DNA of 64,000 nucleotides from Telopea speciosissima (lineage: Eukaryota > Streptophyta > Magnoliopsida > Proteales > Proteaceae): assembly GCF_018873765.1 (NCBI RefSeq), contig NC_057920.1, forward strand, positions 11,793,307-11,857,306, written 5' to 3'. Of the stretch, positions 3,830-61,980 are shown in pieces. Made by a program: the position numbers and the translations under genes. Each line of letters begins with the position of its first letter. Position 1 is the first letter of the stretch. The notes under the pieces are model-generated. The model saw nothing but the letters and a program-made list of their open reading frames with translations. It made no database searches and was not told the origin of the DNA.

Positions 3830-4156
3830 ATTCTTATTAATACTCACATTACCCTTAATCCTGTAACATTGGCAAATCCATAATTGCTTAAGAGATTACT
3901 GATGTTGGTTATCAATATAATTAACAGCACAAAACAAGTCGACACAAAAAGAAAAGCCACGAAAGCAAGAGAGAAAAGAAGGTGAGATTAATAATTCTTA
4001 TTATACTCACATTACCCTTAATCCTTTAACATTGGCAAATCCATAATTGCTTAAGAGATTACTGATGTTGGTTATCAATATAATTAACAGCCCAAAACAA
4101 GTCGACACAAAAAGAAAAGCCACGAAAGCAAGAGAGAAAAGAAGGTGAGATTAATA
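3830..4156 (+). repeat. Recent 163-bp tandem duplication containing a whole exon
   Basis: Copy 1 is about 3830-3993 and copy 2 about 3994-4156. By eye they differ by two substitutions and one 1-bp indel. Each holds an identical-length candidate exon (3928-3981 and 4091-4144, 54 nt) with its own AACAG acceptor and GTGAGA donor. Both copies have phase-1 boundaries, so zero, one or two can be spliced in without shifting frame. Confidence 0.9.
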
Positions 4157-6139
4157 ACCATTCAACTTTTGTTTCTTTCACTTGGTGTCATTAGCATATG
4201 GTAAAGTTTTGCTTATTCGTTTGATAAAATATTTGCTGTTGATTAAAAGGGTGATCCAGATGTGGTGTATATTCAAATGGGTAATTTTCTATTTCAGATC
4301 CAATTGATCCGAAACCAAAAGAAAAACGGCAGAAGGGAGGAAGCTCTGGTTTTCTTGCTCCTCTTCAACTTTCTGAAGCCCTGGTGAAGTTCATTGGTAC
4401 CGGTGAGAGTGCACTGTCACGGTCGGATGTTGTAAAGAGAATGTGGGAGTACATAAAACAAAATAACCTTCAGGTATTTGTTGCTCTTCTTTCTTGAACC
4501 ATATGCTGTGATAGCCGGTTATTGAGTCACCTTAGAAACTGTAATTTGGGTACCCTCTAGTCTTAAACTATTCTTGTGTATTCTCTTTCTTTAAAAGTTT
4601 CTCCAAGTTCAATATGTAGCCTTCAGTTAATATTTTTTAAAATTTAGCTCCTTCAAATAAGACAGGCTGCAGTGTGCACTGGGGATTGGGGGACAATTTT
4701 ATGGTTAAGAATCCTCTTAAACTAGGGTATTAGATGCCCAATGTATGCTGCATAAACTTGTATGTTTGTAAAATTTGATTTATATCTTGTGGTAAAATAC
4801 ACTGCTTTATGGACTGATAGAGCTTATCATAGGTTTTAACAGAAACGCTAACAAATTGTTTAGTGGCATGAATTAATACTTATTTATGGACCTTGTGATT
4901 GAACAACTTAGAGGAGAGACTGCAAGATTTGAAAAACAAGCTGTATATGATAACCAATGGTGGACTCAGAGAGCTTATCATAGGTTTTAACAGACAGGCT
5001 ACCAAATTGTTTAGTAGCATGAGTTAATACTTAGTTATGGACCTTGTGATTGACAACTTAAAGGAGAGTCTGCCAGACTTGAAAAAACAAGCTATATAAC
5101 ATCCAAGTTCCTTAATAACTTTCCAATGAAATAAGGTAAGACATGCATCATCCTAGGAACAAGCGCAAGCCGGCTTGCTATGGGCTCGGGGTTAAGTATG
5201 ATTGTGGCTTTTGGACTTGAGGTAGAACATGGGTCAACATCAACCCATTTTGATGGACTTTTGTTATGGACCTTTTAAGGGAGCCTGTATCCATCAATTT
5301 TTCTTAACATTATGCTATGCATCAAGTTATTTGGACATTGGGCATCTAAGTACGATCCTACATCATAGTTTCGACTTTCAACTTTATTGGGCTATCATGG
5401 TATAAGCTAGTTCTAATCACTTTTGAGGGTTGCATGTCAATTGTGTAAATTTTAAGAACTTAAAGATCTTCTCATGTCATTCTTAGGCACTTCTGTCTGC
5501 TTGTCTAGGCACTTGTGGATAGAAAACTTATGAAATTATGCAGAGTTTTGCTTTAGTAGTCCTCTCTCTCTCTCTAGATTTGTAAATTTATTGAATTTGA
5601 AGCAGATGCACCATTATCTGAATTCTGAATTCAATTTCAACTTTTAATCTGATAAATTCTTCTTTTATTAGTTCTCCTAGTGTAAATCGATTTTTTTAAA
5701 AGTTAAAATAACCTAAAATTTTATTTTTCATAAAATTATAAATGAAAACATATAACAGTATTAAAGTAGTTATTATATAATCATCGTATAATTTTAAATT
5801 ATGATTGGAGTGGAAGCATCAATGTCCAGTTTCATATCTGATTATATCCCAATATTTTTCATTATGCATATTCTTGTCCAATGCCCATTCAAATAAATAC
5901 AAGTGATTTGGATCGTATCCAGTTTTTTGATTACCCTTTTGCTACCCACATTCTCTCTTTCGTTCTCTCATTTCCAAGTAAAACTCCTCAATGTCTTATG
6001 CTTGTCCATGAAGGATCCATCTGATAAGAGGAGGATAATATGTGATGAGAAGCTGAAAGAGCTCTTTGAGGTCGACTTTTTCAATGGATTTACAGTTCCA
6101 AAGCTACTTGCTACTCATTTCATCAAGACAGAACATTGA
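3928..6139 (+). CDS. SWIB/BAF60b-domain protein, 3' exons only (partial)
   Basis: SWIB/MDM2-fold domains occur in BAF60 subunits of SWI/SNF remodelling complexes and in plant proteins thought to act on chromatin or transcription in the nucleus. Exons seen: 3928-3981 and its duplicate 4091-4144 (a Lys/Glu-rich 18-residue linker), 4298-4473, and 6014-6139 ending in TGA. The last two exons encode one complete SWIB domain, from a Gly-rich start through FLAPLQLSEALVKF, SRSDVVKRMWEYIKQNNLQ and DPSDKRRIICDEKLKELF, and end 41 codons into the last exon. Phases agree across all junctions (1,1,1,0). The sequence resembles the second SWIB domain of Arabidopsis two-SWIB proteins such as At1g49520 (from memory). 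The start codon, an N-terminal DEK_C-like part and a first SWIB domain would then lie upstream; none was found here. The intron 4474-6013 contains its own tandem duplication. Confidence 0.92.
4813..5097. repeat. 151-bp tandem duplication inside a SWIB intron
   Basis: Two imperfect copies, each starting near AGAGCTTATCATAGG (about 4819 and 4970) and running to an 'aaacaagct.tata' end. They are clearly more diverged than the exon duplication upstream, so they are an older event. Confidence 0.8.
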
Positions 6140-25534: not shown

Positions 25535-27790
25535 CCATATGACATTAGGTGAAGATAGGAGAGTTAAACCCGTGACCTCCTAGGAGGGTGCACTCTATCG
25601 GAAAAGCACCAAGCAACTAAGCAATCTCTTCTAATTTAGCAATTAGGCCCCGTTTGTTTAGAGGGGTTTGTGGGGTGGGAGAATTGTGGGATTACTGACG
25701 GGTGGATCCCATGTATTTGGAAAAGTAAAGAGTTGATGGATTATTGTAATATTCCATGGGAAAGTTGCAAAATTCCACGTATTTAGTGAGTCTTTGTAAA
25801 GCCAAGGGGTGGGAAAATGATGAGATTTGCAATACCATGTCAGCAGACAATGGTCATGATTATGTTCCCTTCATTATCTCAACATTCTCATCCCCTTGCA
25901 AACAAACAGTTAGGGTGGGATTGTTGCAATGCCATGTCAGCATTTTACCACAACTTTCCCACCCCTTTCCAAACTATTCCTCTAAATAAACGGGGCTTTA
26001 GAATCATCATAAATACAAGCTCAAAATCAACTACTTTAGCCAATCAGAAAACACATGTTAGCTAGTGGGGCACGCCATCAAAACGTATCCAAATTGTTAG
26101 AGCAAAGTATTTTTTTTCATAAAATATGAAAAAAAGGAGGATATTCCGGGCGTTACCTCCCATTAAGCAAAACCGTTTTTAGTATTGTCAGACCCTATTA
26201 ACTTGGCCTCATTTACCGCCAAGCGCAAATGTGTATCACTTCTCTTATCTTTTGAGATATGCTCTCATACCAGGGGGGTTTCATATCTCGTCCACAATTG
26301 GAGAATCGGGTCAATAACTTATACTCACTATATGATACGATTCAAATAGAGTGAGTGAACTCAAATATAGATAGAACCTTATGGCACAAGGTGAAGATAG
26401 GAGAGTCGAACCCGTGACCTTTTAGGAGCTTGAACTCTATAGGAAAGGAACCAAACAATTGAGCAAGCAGTTGTCTTCTAATTTAGCAATTAAAATCATC
26501 ATAAATGCATACTCAAAATCAGCTAATTTAGTCAATCAGAAAACGCCTATTAGCTAGTACGGCACGTCATCAAAACGTATCCAAACTGTTAGAGCAAAAT
26601 CTTTTCTTTTGAATAAAATATGGAAAAAAGGAGGATATCCCGGGTGTTACCTCCCATTAAGCAAAACCGTTTTTAGTATCAAGACCCTATTTACTTGGCC
26701 TCATTTGCCACCAGGCACAAATGTGTATCACTTCTCTTATCTTTTGAGATATGCTCTTATATCAAGGGAGATCCATATCTCGTCCACAGTTGGAGAATCG
26801 GGTCAATAACTCACACTCACTATATGATACGATTCAAATAGAGTGAGTCAACTCAGATGTAAATAGAACCTTATGGCACAAGGTGAAGATAGAAGAGTCG
26901 AACCCATGACCTCTTAGGAGCTTGCACTCTATAAGAAAGGCATCAAACAATTGAGCTAAATTTAACAATTAAAATCATCATAAATGCAGACCCAAAATCA
27001 ACTAATTTAGTCAATCTGAAAATGCCTATTAGCTAGTAGGGCACGTTATCAAAACATATCCAAACTGTTAGAGCAAACTTTTCTTTTGAATAAAATATGG
27101 AAAAAAGGAGGATATCCCGGGCGTTACCTCCCATTAAGCAAAACCGCTTTTAGTATTGTTAGACCCTATTAACTTGGCCTCATTCGCCACCAGGCACCAA
27201 TGTGTATCGCTTCTCTTATCTTTTGAGATACGCTCTCATATCAGGGGAGATCCATATCTTGTCCACAGTTGGACAATCGGGTCAATGACTTACACTCGTT
27301 AGATGATCCGATTCAAATAGAGTGAGTCAACTCAAATACAACTAGAACCTTATGGCACAAGGTGAAGATAGGAGAGCCGAACCTCAGACCTCCTAAGAAT
27401 CTACACTCTACCAAAAAGGCACCCAAGCTCAAAATCAACTAATTTAGTCAACCAGAAACCGCCTATTAGCTAGTAGGGCACGTCATCAAACCATATCCAA
27501 ACTGTTAGCGCAAAATCTTTTCTTTTGAATAAATTATGAAAAAAAGGAGGATATCCCGGGCATTACCTCCCATTAAGCAAAACCGTTTTTAGTATTGTCA
27601 GACCCTATTAACTCCGCTTCATTTTCCACCAGGTGCCAATGTATATCGCTTCTCTTATCTTCTTCTGAGATATGCTCTCGTACCTGGGGAAATCCATATC
27701 TTGTCTTCAGTTGGAGAATCGGGTCAATGACTCACACTCGCTAGATGATCCGATTCAAGTAGAGCGAGTCAACTTATATATAAATAGAAT
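25535..27790. repeat. Tandem array of about four 440-490 bp units
   Basis: The unit marker 'caatcagaaaa' or a close variant starts at 26041, 26533, 27012 and 27449, giving spacings of 492, 479 and 437 bp. Each unit carries 'ggaggatat.ccggg.gttacctcccattaag', 'cttctcttatctt' and 'atgatacgattcaaatagagtgag'. Each also holds a reverse-strand tRNA-like segment with a B-box-like GGGTTCGACTCTCC complement (near 25555, 26405, 26897 and 27375). A partial unit precedes 25646. Confidence 0.85.
25646..25997. mobile_element. Tourist-like (PIF/Harbinger) MITE, 352 bp
   Basis: The ends GGCCCCGTTTGTTTAGAGG and CCTCTAAATAAACGGGGCT form 19-bp terminal inverted repeats with two mismatches. TTA at 25643-25645 and 25998-26000 is the 3-bp target duplication of PIF/Harbinger elements. 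The sister unit reads straight through the site as 'agcaattaaaatcatcata', which shows the empty site. It has no transposase, so it is non-autonomous. Confidence 0.9.
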
Positions 27791-33536: not shown

Positions 33537-35322
33537 ATGGGTTCGAATTCGCCGGAACTGAACTTAGATTTCAATCTGGCGTACATCCCAGAGACTATCA
33601 GCAGTTTTCTTCTAGAGCTGTCGACGATCGGAGACGTTTCTGAGAGGCTATCGAAACTCAACGAGTATGTGAAGAGGTTAGAAGAAGAAATGAGGAAGAT
33701 CGATGCCTTTAAAAGGGAGCTTCCTCTCTGCATGCTTCTGGTAAACGATGGTGGGTGTCTTCCTTTCATAGCTTTTACGGCAACCCCTTTGTTTTCCATC
33801 TTTTTCTTAAATTTTCTGTTACGGGTTTCTATTTTTTATGATTAAATCTGATGGGTTTTTGTAATTTTTGTTTTTTTAAATTGTATCTCTATCTGTGGCA
33901 GCCATTAAAGCATTGAAGGGGCAAACAATGCAGTGTACGGCATCAGATGTTCGACCTGTAATGGAAGAATTCATTCCATTAAAGAAAATTTCTAAGGAAG
34001 ATGGAGAGGTGAAGAAGGAAATGGATTGCAGAGATAAGAAAAACTGGATGAGCTCTGTTCAGCTCTGGAATACTAATGGTTGTTCAAATGATGATCTCAA
34101 CTGCGACCAGAAACAAAAATCTGTTGCAGATGTAAAAGATGTAATAATCGAATATTTTCTTTCTTTGTTCTTTTTAATTTATAGGAATCATATCGTAATT
34201 TTAAATGATTTAAACGAAGATCAGTTTTAGTAGAAAACTGGTTTTTCCTTCTTCTGTTTTTTTTTTTCTAATAATTTGCCCTTTTGGGTAATGTGATGAC
34301 AGGGACCCGAAGAAGACGATAAGTGTGCCAGTGCCACTGAGAACCCATTTCAGTTATGCAAATACAACAATGGAGGAGGAGGAGGAGGGGCGTTCATGCC
34401 TTTTAAGGGCTATTCTGGTTTTCCGGCACAGCCCCCAAATGAAGAGAAAGAGGAGGCTTTAGCTATCGCTGGGCTTTCTCTTTTGTCTCCTGTACTTAAG
34501 ACTCCCTCTACTGAAGCAAGCTCCGGTCTGAATTCGAAGAGAGCTGTTGCTTCATCTTCTATTAATGGTCAATCAAATTTACAGAAGACGATGACGATTA
34601 CTTCGCAACAGCAGCAAGAGCAGGCTTCGAGAAAGCAAAGGAGATGCTGGTCCCCGGAGTTACACAGGCGTTTCGTTAATGCCCTGCAACAGCTTGGGGG
34701 CTCACAAGGTATAAGATAAGAGAATGATTTCCCTTTTTTTCCCTTTTCTTTTGCTAGATCCAGAATATAGATTTATTCTTTTTAGAAGGAAATTTATGAA
34801 TCGAAAATTAATGTCTCTTTGAATCTCTCAATTCATCTGTATTTGATCCCTGATCATGTTTCGATGCAGCTGCCACACCCAAGCAAATAAGAGAGCTGAT
34901 GAAGGTAGATGGTCTCACCAATGACGAAGTGAAGAGTCATTTGCAGGTGGGTTTTGAAGTTTTACTCTGATTTCATTTTACTTTTCTTGCTAATCTGTTT
35001 AATGGGTGATGAAGATGGAAATTGTCTTGTTTTGTTTCAGAAATACAGACTTCACACCCGTAGAGCTCCAGCCACTACATCCCAAGGGAATCAAACAGTG
35101 GTTGTATTAGGTGAACTATGGATGCCCCAAGATCAGTATGGGGTCACCTCAAAGCCCAGTACATCTCAGTCTGGGTCTCCACAGGGTCCCCTTCAGTTGT
35201 CTGGTACTGCTGGAGGTATCTCCACCACAGGTGGTGAAAGCATGGAAGATGATGAAGATGGCAAATCAGAAAGTTATAGTTGGAAAGGTCATCTTCAGAA
35301 ATCCGGTGAAGACGATGTATAG
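33537..35322 (+). CDS. HHO/NIGT1-family GARP (G2-like) transcription factor, HHO5/HHO6 type
   Basis: A nuclear DNA-binding protein. Relatives (HRS1, HHO1-6, NIGT1) are repressors in nitrate and phosphate signalling or development; the role of this copy is not shown by sequence. Five exons join in phase: 33537-33750, 33902-34140, 34303-34708, 34870-34946, 35041-35322, giving 405 residues and TAG. Residues 1-71 hold the family N-terminus with EAR-like LNLDFNL (8-14) and an amphipathic helix (35-62) ending in the hallmark [14 protein letters not shown]. The G2-like Myb domain is 262-320 with [33 protein letters not shown]. The tail has [15 protein letters not shown] and an acidic end. The MGS-SPEL start resembles HHO5/HHO6 rather than HRS1/HHO1-3 (from memory). 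The intron inside the Myb domain, before the helix starting ATPKQI, is at the conserved place. Exon 2 has two in-frame donors (34132 and 34141). Confidence 0.96.
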
Positions 35323-37100: not shown

Positions 37101-37908
37101 GAACTGATTTACAATCACCCTTAAGAGTCTTGGTTTGATTGTTGGGGCTCATCCATTGTTTGTTCATTCAAAATGACTTGTCTTTTAAGAGTTTAAAACA
37201 CTAAGAAAGTTGAGAATTAGAAACTTTTTTGTAGACTTTCTTGTCCATGATCTCCCATTTAATATCTTTCATAAACCCTTTTTTTGGGGGTAAAATCTTT
37301 CATTAAACCCTGTAGAAGGCAGAATGAACTGTATCAGTTAGGTATTGATTTTGATTTTTGAGTCTTAAAAATCGGTAAGAAACCGAGATCGATTGAACTA
37401 ACCACAACCAAAAAATTGAAAAGCCCAATAAAATTCAAGATATTTTTGACTTTTCCTATGATATATGAAATAGGACAAAGTTTTCCTCCACCCATAGAGC
37501 ACGGTTCATCCACTATCCTAGGGTTCACAAACCCCTCCTAAGGTTTTTGTATGTTCTAAAATACACTCCCGATACCCATTCCCGCTCTATGCTATCCCTC
37601 GGTGAATGGGATCCCATTCAACGTGGGTGGAGGGAAACTTGGTCTCATGAAATGATCCATGCTAGATTGATAATAAACCGATGAAGAAGGGAAAGGGCAT
37701 GATTAAAAGAAATTTATAATGGACAAATACTGTTTTGATTTTTGTAGACCAAACATTTCATCTGTTCACTTTTAATTTGACTTGATATATATAAAAGGGA
37801 GAGGGATAGGCACACCGCCCACATGTGGTAAGCTGCACCAACAAGGCATGAGACGAGGCATCATACATGAGGAGTGGGGGTCATTTTAAAGAGAGAGAGA
37901 GAGAGAAT

Positions 37909-38445
37909 GGACATTAACTTGCGGTACGAGGCCAGTGTGCCAAACTTTTCTTATATTAAAAACCAAACAAATCTATCGAGGCTCAACCAAATCGAGGGGT
38001 TGACACCCGGTGGGTCTAAATTGGTTCGAGTTTAAGTCATACGATACCCTAAACATTTATTAGCAAAACGGAAGTAAAAAAACAAAAAGCGAAAAAGACA
38101 AGGGCACAATAAACAAATTAGTATAGGGATCTAATTTTGGTAAAAAATAATAAATGTGATAGGATGGAGAGACAACGGACATTAACTTGCAGTATGAGGG
38201 TAGTGTGCCAATCTTTTCTTATATTAAAAACCAAACAAATCTATCGAAACTGAACCGAATTGAGGGGTTGGCATCCAGTGGGTCAAAATTGGTTCGAGTT
38301 TAAGTCATATGTTACCATAACCATTTATTAGGAAAACGAAAGTAAAAAAAAAAAAAAAAAAAGCGAAAAAGACGAGAGTACAATAAACAAAATGGTATTG
38401 AGATCTAATTTTGGTAACAAATAATAAATTTGACGGGATTCCTAA
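37909..38445. repeat. 268-bp tandem duplication
   Basis: ACATTAACTTGC starts at 37911 and again at 38179. Both copies contain 'cttttcttatattaaaaaccaaacaaatctatcga', 'ttggttcgagtttaagtcata' and 'gatctaattttggta'. They differ at many positions, and copy 2 has a longer A run. The function is unknown and there is no reading frame. Confidence 0.85.
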
Positions 38446-38807
38446 CGGTACCAGTACCAAAATACCAGTTAAGTATCAGATGGAATTGGAACTACCAAGA
38501 CCCTTTCAAAGGGTATATTTTACGTTCTTGTGTTCAATTTTTATGACTATAGTTTGATGTATTTGGACGGTATTTTCTCTTACGAAGGTTTCAGCTGATG
38601 GACCTTTACTTTTGTTTCTATAAACTTGTTTAGTGATTATACTAAAACCATATATGGACTTGTTTATTTCGTCCTCATTTATTCATAATCATCATTTTGA
38701 GAAGCTTACATGTGATCTTAAGGAGTTTGAAGAAGTAAAATCATGAAATTCCATATGGTTTTATATTCTATGTTGCTTTATTAAGTGAGAATCACCTTAG
38801 ATCTCAT

Positions 38808-39480
38808 AATAGTGAAAAGATCCACAACTTTTGATAATAGAAACATCTTAATAAGAACCATTAAAAATTTTCTCCCTCTTAATAATCGGGACTGAAACGT
38901 ACCATAACCTAAAGTTGTTCTTTAGACTAAATTCCACCTGTCCTAATCTTGTCATTGTGGCCAAAGATTTAAAGTATGTGCATTTTAACCTTACAATGAT
39001 ACAACTTTTTATATGAATAGCATAGATACAATAAATGAAATCAAAACAAGGGAAAAGTATCTGCATGACGATTCTTGGATTCAGCTCCTTTCCTACGAGC
39101 ACCCCATCTGGTGAGTGCTAGTGAGGCATCCACCGCGGGGCTGCTCACATTTGATAATAGTGAAAAGATCCATAACATTTGATAATAGAAACATCTTAAT
39201 AAGAACCACTAAAAATTTTCTCCCTGTTAATAATCGGGACTGAGACGTACCATAACCTAAAGTTGTTCTTTAGACTAAATTCCACCTGTCCTAATCTTGT
39301 AATTGTGGTCAAAGATTTAAAGTATGTGCATTTTAACCTTACAATGATACAACTTTTAATATGAATAGCATAGTTAAAATGTTGATATAAAAAAAATAAA
39401 TGAAATCAAAACAAGGGAAAAGTATCCGCATGACGATTCTTGGATTCAGCTCCTTTCCTGCGAGCACCCCATTTGGTGAG
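38808..39480. repeat. 348-bp tandem duplication that includes part of a MITE
   Basis: AGTGAAAAGATCCA starts at 38811 and 39159. The copies are highly similar over about 300 bp ('cttaataagaacca.taaaaattttctccct', 'ttagactaaattccacctgtcctaatc'). Both run into the left end of the foldback element at 39442; in copy 1 that element is cut short at about 39142. Confidence 0.88.
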
Positions 39481-39607
39481 TGCCAGTGAGGCATCAACGC
39501 CCCAGGTTATGTGCCTAGCCCCACCTGGCGTGCATAGAGCAGCCCTATTGTTGGATGCCTCATTGGGAACTCACTGAGCTCGGTGCTCACTGGAGAGGAG
39601 CCCGATC
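39442..39607. mobile_element. hAT-like foldback MITE; a truncated copy lies at 39072-39142
   Basis: Left end GGATTCAGCTCCTTTCCTGC and right end CACTGGAGAGGAGCCCGATC are inverted repeats, with GCGAGCACC pairing GGTGCTC inside. The flanks CGATTCTT (39434-39441) and CGATTATT (39608-39615) match at 7 of 8 bases, an aged 8-bp duplication. The ends resemble the elements at 31313 and 59999. Confidence 0.7.
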
Positions 39608-48792: not shown

Positions 48793-49195
48793 TTCATTTT
48801 TGTCATTTTTTTATTTTCTTTTTCTGTTAGAAGGTAAAATTGTAGAAAATTTGTAAAAACTCATTTCTGATAGCAATATCTACAAGTCTTTCGAATAAAA
48901 TACACCAAAAATTCATATTTCAGTGGAAATATTTGTTTCCGAGGGTTCTGGCTGATTTCAGCCAATTCTGATGTAATTCGAATTAAAATGCTTTTTAATC
49001 TTCATTTTTGTCATTTTTTTTTTCTTTTAGAAGGTAAAATTGTAGAAATTTGTAAAAACTCATTTCTGATAGCAAGATCTACAAGTCTTTCGAATAAAAT
49101 ACACCAAAAATTCATATTTCAGTGGAAATATTTGTTTCCGAGGGTTCTGGCTGATTTCAGCCAATTCTGATATAATTCGAATTAAAATTGTTAAA
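48793..49195. repeat. 208-bp tandem duplication
   Basis: TTCATTTTTGTCATTTTTTT starts at 48793 and 49001. The copies are almost identical through 'agaaggtaaaattgtagaaa', 'caccaaaaattcatatttcagtgg' and 'gaattaaaat'. A few substitutions and small indels separate them, so the event is fairly recent. Confidence 0.9.
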
Positions 49196-53396: not shown

Positions 53397-53408
53397 AAGT
53401 GAAGAGAA

Positions 53409-54221
53409 ATGGCGTCGTCGTCGAATTCTCCGTGTGCAGCTTGCAAGTTCCTACGGCGGAAATGCACACAAGAATGCGTGTTCGCACCCTATTTTCCCCC
53501 AGATCAGCCGACAAAGTTTGCGAATGTGCATAAGGTTTTCGGCGCAAGTAATGTTGCCAAGCTGCTTAACGAGCTCAACCCAACACAAAGAGAGGATGCC
53601 GTGAACTCTTTAGCGTACGAGGCAGAAGCGAGGCTTCGCGATCCAGTTTATGGATGTGTGGGTCTTATCTCAGTTCTTCAACATAGGCTGAAACAAGTCC
53701 AGAACGATCTCACCAACGCAAAGAAGGAACTAGCAAACTATATTGGTCCATCTGCAATGCTTCCTTTGAGTCATCAACACCCACACCACCAGCTCCTGCA
53801 CCCACACCCACACCACAACCCTTCTTCCAACACGGGACCCTACGGAATGTCCCCGGTGGGGTTGGGTATGCCAGCAGCACAGGCCCAGTTGTTAATGAGA
53901 GAGCAGCAACAACAGATGCTGGAAGCACAACATCTAGCCGCAGTTGTAGCTGCTAGAGAGCAACAAGAGATGATGAGAAGCTACGCCCAGCAACAACAAC
54001 AGGAGGAGCTTGTCAGGTTTAATGGCGGCTTTGATGGGTCTACCGGGACTGCCATTGGGGGAGTTAGTGGTGGTTTTAATCAAATGACCGCAGCGTTACC
54101 TTCTTCCTTAGCTTTGGCTTCATTCGACAACCCGTTTCAGGTCCAGCAACCTCAACATGAACACCCGCAGCAGAGAGCAGGAAGCGATGAGATTAAGAGC
54201 AGCGTTGATCCGTCTTCTTAA
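53409..54221 (+). CDS. LOB-domain (LBD/ASL) transcription factor, LBD36-like, class I
   Basis: A plant-specific nuclear DNA-binding protein; class I LBD proteins such as AS2/LBD6 and LBD36 act in lateral organ and leaf patterning. It is a 270-residue single open frame. The LOB domain spans about residues 8-108: zinc-finger-like C9-x2-C12-x6-C19-x3-C23, the FGAS block at 44-47, the invariant Asp-Pro at 78-79 in LRDPVYG, and a leucine-zipper-like stretch at about 83-108 (GLISVLQHRLKQVQ). The complete coil marks class I. The tail is His/Pro-rich, then Gln-rich (about 160-200), as in LBD36/AS2-type tails. The N-terminus MASSS-SPCAACKFLRRKC is very close to Arabidopsis LBD36 as I remember it. No coding intron is needed. 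The opposite-strand frame at 53710-53928 is a shadow. A SINE lies just downstream. Confidence 0.96.
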   Translation: MASSSNSPCAACKFLRRKCTQECVFAPYFPPDQPTKFANVHKVFGASNVAKLLNELNPTQREDAVNSLAYEAEARLRDPVYGCVGLISVLQHRLKQVQNDLTNAKKELANYIGPSAMLPLSHQHPHHQLLHPHPHHNPSSNTGPYGMSPVGLGMPAAQAQLLMREQQQQMLEAQHLAAVVAAREQQEMMRSYAQQQQQEELVRFNGGFDGSTGTAIGGVSGGFNQMTAALPSSLALASFDNPFQVQQPQHEHPQQRAGSDEIKSSVDPSS

Positions 54222-61170: not shown

Positions 61171-61440
61171 CTGGGGTAGCTCAATTGGTAAGGGTCCAAG
61201 ATCAAGGAAGAAGAGGTTCTGAGTACAAATCTTCTCCACCCTTGGGGCCAACTGCAAAGTAATTTTATGGTTTCCATTGGTCCCAATCTTTCTTGGTCCT
61301 TGTCGGTTTGGATCTCACATGGACCCTGAGTTTATCCAATCTACTCATAAAAAACCTACCACCTCATCCATGTGAAATAAAAGATGTTGTTGCTGCTGAG
61401 CAGCCTCTTGGTGACGTGTGCAATCTGCAAGGGGAGAAAG
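61171..61440 (+). mobile_element. tRNA-derived SINE-like element
   Basis: The plus strand has an A-box-like GGGGTAGCTCAATTGGTAAG at 61173 and a B-box-like GGTTCTGAGTACAAATC about 40 nt later, at tRNA-like spacing, followed by a non-tRNA body. No target-site duplication could be fixed because the body is tandemly duplicated. Confidence 0.55.
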
Positions 61441-61706
61441 GACAAAGAAGAGACTCGGAGAGGTTCTGAGTACAAATCTTCTCCACCCTTGGGGCCAACT
61501 GCAAAGTAATTTTATGGTTTCCATTGGTCCCAATCTTTCTTGGCCCTTGTCGGTTTGGATCTCACATGGACCCCGAGTTTATCCAATCTACTCATAAAAA
61601 ACCTACCACCTCATCCATGTGTAATAAAAGATGTTGTTGCTGCTGAACAGCCTCCTGGTGACGTGTGCAATCTGCAAGGGGAGAAAGGACTAAGAAGAGA
61701 CTCGGA
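61213..61706. repeat. 247-bp tandem duplication of the SINE-like body
   Basis: GAGGTTCTGAGTACAAATC starts at 61213 and 61460. The copies are nearly identical through 'ttatggtttccattggtccc', 'acatggaccc.gagtttatcc' and 'ggtgacgtgtgcaatctgc'. By eye only a few substitutions are seen. The upstream A-box part is not repeated. Confidence 0.92.
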
Positions 61707-61980
61707 GCGGACTCCGAGGGGGGACTCTCCGATGCCTAAGTCAGTCCGGTGCACGAATGAGTTAATTAGAGGGGTACAGAGAGAGTAAAAATGTCAAGAT
61801 TCTCTTACCTGGGTTCCTCTTTGTGCTTTTCTACCTGGAGTGGTTATCGAGGTAGTTGACAATCTCCATGCTTCCCATCTTTTGACACGTAGCAATAATG
61901 GGGTAGTTACTCGCTCCATTGAGGGGTGACGTCTCCCAGTGGACAGCAGTATCTTCTCCTGTAGATGCCAATTCTAATTG
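61707..61980. repeat. Possible LTR-type fragment
   Basis: Has 'ggggactctccgatgcctaagt' as at 46995-47015, followed by GC-balanced non-coding DNA. The association with LTR retrotransposons is from memory and no ends were found. Confidence 0.3.

Follow-up and report, generated by a model that had tools for sequence, protein, structure and literature searches.

Tandem duplication of exons is a described kind of change in eukaryotic genes (PMC9013439). In such cases, as they are outlined in two papers, near-identical copies of an exon adjoin each other within one gene, each with splice sites of its own (PMC9013439; PMC12343006). The main texts of these two papers do not contain the word 'plant'. 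A plant gene with small adjacent exons is FLM/MAF1 of Arabidopsis, where the exons are described as encoding 19 and 15 amino acids with different residues, one or the other being included (PMC3266260). For plant duplications of comparable size, a rice study, as cited in a review, blamed inaccurate break repair for insertions of 10–1000 bp, many of them tandem duplications (PMC7407515), and a duplication of 408 bp in VvmybA1 of grape is reported with 3 bp of homology at its junction (PMC7464560). In the literature on exon duplication, no case from a plant SWIB gene was found among the matches listed.

Here we describe a locus that shares features with each of these systems. It lies in a window of 64,000 nucleotides, the whole stretch of DNA that was analysed, in a gene whose predicted product has a SWIB domain. 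As in the described tandem exon duplications, near-identical copies of a small predicted exon adjoin in one gene, each with putative splice sites of its own; the differences are that the copies encode identical peptides and that they are known here from sequence alone (PMC9013439; PMC12343006). As in FLM/MAF1, the exons are small and adjacent and the gene is presumably a plant gene, the exon encoding 18 amino acids; whereas the FLM/MAF1 exons differ in residues and are used alternatively, the residues here are the same and both copies could be included in frame (PMC3266260). The locus also resembles the rice and grape duplications in its presumed plant context, in its size range and in its limited junction homology (0–1 nt as read by eye, against 3 bp in grape), except that the doubled unit includes a predicted exon (PMC7407515; PMC7464560). 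The pair most likely represents a young, undiverged tandem exon duplication with both copies included, 'obligate' in the terms of Exonize (PMC12343006), to judge from the features described below.

The repeat itself is clear. TRF finds a two-copy head-to-tail repeat at 3830–4157 (period 163, 2.0 copies, 98% matches, score 635), with copy 1 at 3830–3992 and copy 2 at 3993–4157 on the plus strand. In a repeat search, 3840–3994 and 4003–4157 are 99% identical, and self-BLAST gives the pair of about 163 bp an E-value of 1.2e-75, so the pair is not due to chance. Pairwise alignment of the copies covers 162 sites, with two substitutions and one gap of 1 nt. The gap and one substitution lie 5′ of the exon, and the other substitution is at exon base 2. 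The locus is, in this respect, a pair of adjoining near-identical copies inside one gene.

Each copy contains a predicted exon of 54 nt, at 3928–3981 in copy 1 and at 4091–4144 in copy 2, both on the plus strand and of phase 1/1. The copy 1 exon has a CAG acceptor and an AAG/GTGAGA donor and would encode, with its first codon split, (split codon)QNKSTQKEKPRKQERKE; the copy 2 exon would encode the same peptide. The two are separated by a predicted intron of 109 nt (3982–4090, plus strand; 72% A+T), retention of which would bring in an in-frame stop. A CTGAT branch-point candidate lies 26 nt 5′ of each exon copy, the 45 intron bases 5′ of the exon are identical between the copies, and the donors agree as far as +13. 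The branch-point motif is little telling here: at the gene's other two acceptors, a comparable word lies only at 56 nt in one case and is missing within 60 nt in the other. The acceptor is pyrimidine-poor, with 8 of 17 pyrimidines at −20 to −4 against 11 and 12 of 17 at the next two acceptors, which makes partial skipping of the exon plausible. The exon itself is 80% purine, rising to 89% in the last 36 nt, a composition that resembles exonic enhancers.

We infer the exon status of the segment from such signals. Its openness to translation is no evidence of coding, since the 54 nt are open in all three frames. When the 64 kb are scanned on both strands for segments with a YAG acceptor, an upstream CTRAY, an AG/GTRAG donor and a length of 30–150 nt that is a multiple of three, exactly the two exon copies emerge on the plus strand and nothing on the minus strand. 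The pattern was set with the exon already in view, and its sensitivity is low: the exons of every other gene in the window escape it, as does the rest of the SWIB gene itself, whose next exon has 176 nt and a GTATTT donor. The scan is therefore support for the exon call, not proof. The incoming phase is likewise a prediction, the upstream exon being outside the window or not found, and given that phase each copy has its own predicted acceptor and donor and a phase compatible with its neighbours.

Downstream, a predicted intron of 153 nt (4145–4297) leads to a predicted exon at 4298–4473 that encodes the end of a linker and the first half of a SWIB domain. A further predicted intron of 1540 nt (4474–6013) and a predicted terminal exon at 6014–6139, with the second half of the domain and the stop codon, complete the visible part of the gene; all of these are on the plus strand. 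The 54-nt exon joins in phase to 4298–4473 and 6014–6139 and reads in frame to the stop. In the joined exons, Pfam identifies the SWIB domain (PF02201) with 98.4 bits against a cut-off of 25 (E=2e-28). The initial annotation had proposed a SWIB gene with two 163-bp copies that differ by two substitutions and one indel. Both points hold. So do its splice junctions at 3981, 4091, 4144 and 4298, which agree with the predicted exons, and, at the level of prediction, its assignment of a separate acceptor and donor to each copy, the intronic signals being identical.

Among solved structures, ten matches were obtained. Yeast UAF30 ranks first (E=3.2e-14); the others are six SMARCD-type SWI/SNF subunits, one DM2-domain protein and two hypothetical proteins named by clone (1v31 and 1v32), which we take to be plant proteins. 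The gene shares the SWIB domain with UAF30-type and other SWIB/MDM2 proteins and differs from them in that a single SWIB domain is visible within the window, where a DEK_C domain was not seen either. One plant subgroup consists of proteins with DEK_C plus two SWIB domains. The initial annotation had placed the exon in the linker ahead of a second SWIB domain, a wording that would call for a first one upstream. We searched by tblastn with the window's own SWIB sequence and two plant segments, queries that matched the known exons. A further SWIB-like exon was not found in the window, the best matches outside the known exons, among the matches listed, having E=0.88 and E=0.054, and the gene's 5′ part may lie past the window's edge. 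The same approach found no upstream exon or donor in the 3.9 kb of the window 5′ of the 54-nt exon, and two upstream open frames have no Pfam match up to E=1.

Some other features of the window may be recorded. Within 1–2640, in the presumed upstream intron, two stretches, judged by eye, look LTR-like or TATA-like and contain similar short words, and one open frame there has no Pfam match. An open frame at 53403–54221 encodes a LOB-domain protein (Pfam E=2.4e-42), and gene content of this sort suggests that the source is a plant. Another, at 34300–34719, has an end that presumably resembles a GARP/G2-like DNA-binding domain; the fragment has no Pfam match at E 0.001.

What would the duplication do to the protein? 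The single exon difference, NCA against NCC at the split codon, is silent for all four preceding bases (T/T, P/P, A/A and S/S). The initial annotation had rightly called it silent but had limited this to a preceding G, when any base will do. Read with G in front, the unit of 18 residues contains 5 Lys, 2 Arg, 3 Glu and 3 Gln. Inclusion of the exon zero times, once or twice preserves the frame in every case, in keeping with the earlier proposal, which the sequence bears out through the 1/1 phase, that double inclusion adds 18 Lys/Glu-rich residues without a frameshift. Since the same 18 residues are encoded by both copies, a choice between them cannot alter the protein; only their number (0, 1 or 2) can. 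With peptides and intronic signals identical, a preference for one copy would need position or the one silent exon base.

The spacer of 109 nt exceeds the minimum for plant introns, about 60–70 nt. Given a symmetric exon and an A+T-rich intron with intact signals, we would expect the spliceosome to remove this intron like any other, so that the usual mRNA would carry both exon copies. Many plant introns are said to be recognized by intron definition (PMC2674458), a mode that favors the removal of a short intron between the copies. The protein would then have its Lys/Glu/Gln-rich linker lengthened by 18 residues ahead of the SWIB domain. Skipping of one copy would give exactly the single-copy protein, and skipping of both would still keep the frame. 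Double inclusion appears to be the simplest expectation, and the duplication is probably near-neutral.

As to origin, we suggest that a local error of DNA repair at a break, with 0–1 nt of junction homology, doubled 163 bp of the gene, and that by chance a whole small exon, together with its branch-point region, acceptor and donor, fell inside the doubled unit. The junction homology, read by eye, fits end joining but is no proof of it, and the junction departs from a single clean join in that copy 2 is without one A nearby. The unit size is inside the range of 10–1000 bp given in the review (PMC7407515). Two other origins were considered and rejected. A mobile element is not indicated, as the unit, searched by BLAST against the window, has no third copy and gives only matches of 12 nt. 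Unequal exchange at an ATTAATA word near both ends would leave fewer bases at the junction than are seen there by eye.

The neighborhood is rich in similar events. Five of the 16 TRF rows have periods above 100 (starting at 3830, 4810, 25998, 48803 and 61212), and three more pairs, adjacent or nearly so, come from self-BLAST (37899/38167, 38806/39154 and 51186/51444, with identities of 85%, 91% and 72%), the latter two with gaps of about 20–30 nt between their copies. Besides 3830–4157, the two methods thus give seven direct duplications with units longer than 100 bp in the 64 kb, and in this context the duplication is ordinary. The individual cases vary. The next intron of the SWIB gene has a tandem duplication at 4810–5098 (period 151; 13 substitutions in 137 aligned sites). 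At 25998–27789 there is an array of units of about 490 bp (2.9 copies by TRF), and diverged matches reach 29335 by self-BLAST. The direct duplications at 37899–38439 (85%) and 38806–39498 (91%) are found by self-BLAST and are missing from the TRF list. A tandem duplication at 48803–49188 has a period of 199 (5 substitutions in 186 aligned sites), and 61212–61707 consists of two 247-bp copies with 6 substitutions and no gaps. Across the five TRF arrays the divergence of the pairs runs from 0.012 substitutions per site, at 3830–4157, to 0.11.

The description of the event as very recent holds only in part: the copies are indeed nearly identical, but the dating is loose. Two observed substitutions have a 95% interval of 0.2–7.2 events. 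At rates of 1.5e-9 to 1.5e-8 substitutions per site per year, for which three values were used, point estimates range from 0.4 to 4.1 My, and the whole span is 0.05–15 My. Conversion between the copies could mask a greater age.

We hold it probable, taking these points together, that break repair produced a tandem duplication that enclosed a small symmetric exon by chance, and that the 109-nt intron is spliced normally with both copies usually included. The readings that compete with this are not wholly exclusive of it or of each other, and their likelihoods need not add up to one. The strongest competitor, which we would still give no better than a minor chance, is flexible or cassette use, in which either or both copies would be included in varying proportions through weak, identical acceptors, giving 0, 1 or 2 linker units. 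Both acceptors are pyrimidine-poor, the upstream donor would face two identical acceptors, and every inclusion state preserves the frame; under intron definition, however, the shortness of the intron between the copies and its intact donor favor its removal, and in the four columns of one table of splicing events, exon skipping and cryptic exons account for 10.0–20.2% of events against 40.1–51.9% for intron retention and cryptic introns (PMC2674458). A regulated choice of mutually exclusive exons, as in FLM/MAF1 of Arabidopsis, seems to us the least credible outcome. Such pairs have been linked to tandem exon duplication (PMC9013439), and FLM/MAF1 is an example from a plant (PMC3266260). At this locus, however, the choice would have no effect on the protein, double inclusion causes no frameshift, the copies are spaced by 109 nt, and the sole stretch that was folded (3830–4297, the upstream intron lying outside it) has no excess of structure (z=−1.01; 14 of 100 shuffles as stable). 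The earlier suggestion of possible mutually exclusive exons is therefore not supported as a meaningful outcome.

Two further readings question the locus itself. That the 54 nt do not form an exon, so that only intron was duplicated, or that this copy of the gene is a 5′-truncated pseudogene, we regard as unlikely: the preceding 3.9 kb yielded no upstream SWIB-like exon and so short a segment is open in three frames, but the good donor, the branch-point candidate and the phase match speak for an exon, its Lys/Glu composition runs on into the linker of the next exon, and the SWIB reading frame is intact. Still less likely is a single genomic copy doubled by misassembly or by the merging of haplotypes. 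Alleles could well differ by as much as two substitutions and one gap, but the junction carries a separate indel, and the pairs in the remaining four TRF arrays have diverged by 0.025–0.11 substitutions per site, as a real and continuing process would give.

In closing, one reading goes beyond usual double inclusion. The exon would have been duplicated so recently that the encoded peptides have yet to diverge, and splicing, or differences between individuals, would set how many linker units (0, 1 or 2) precede the SWIB domain, so that copy count and not exon sequence would tune the length and charge of the linker; we think this rather doubtful. If both copies are spliced, the locus would be a clean natural starting point for following what becomes of an exon between its duplication and the divergence of its sequence. 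Otherwise, it would be one more local tandem duplication, of an ordinary kind, in a duplication-rich stretch of the genome.
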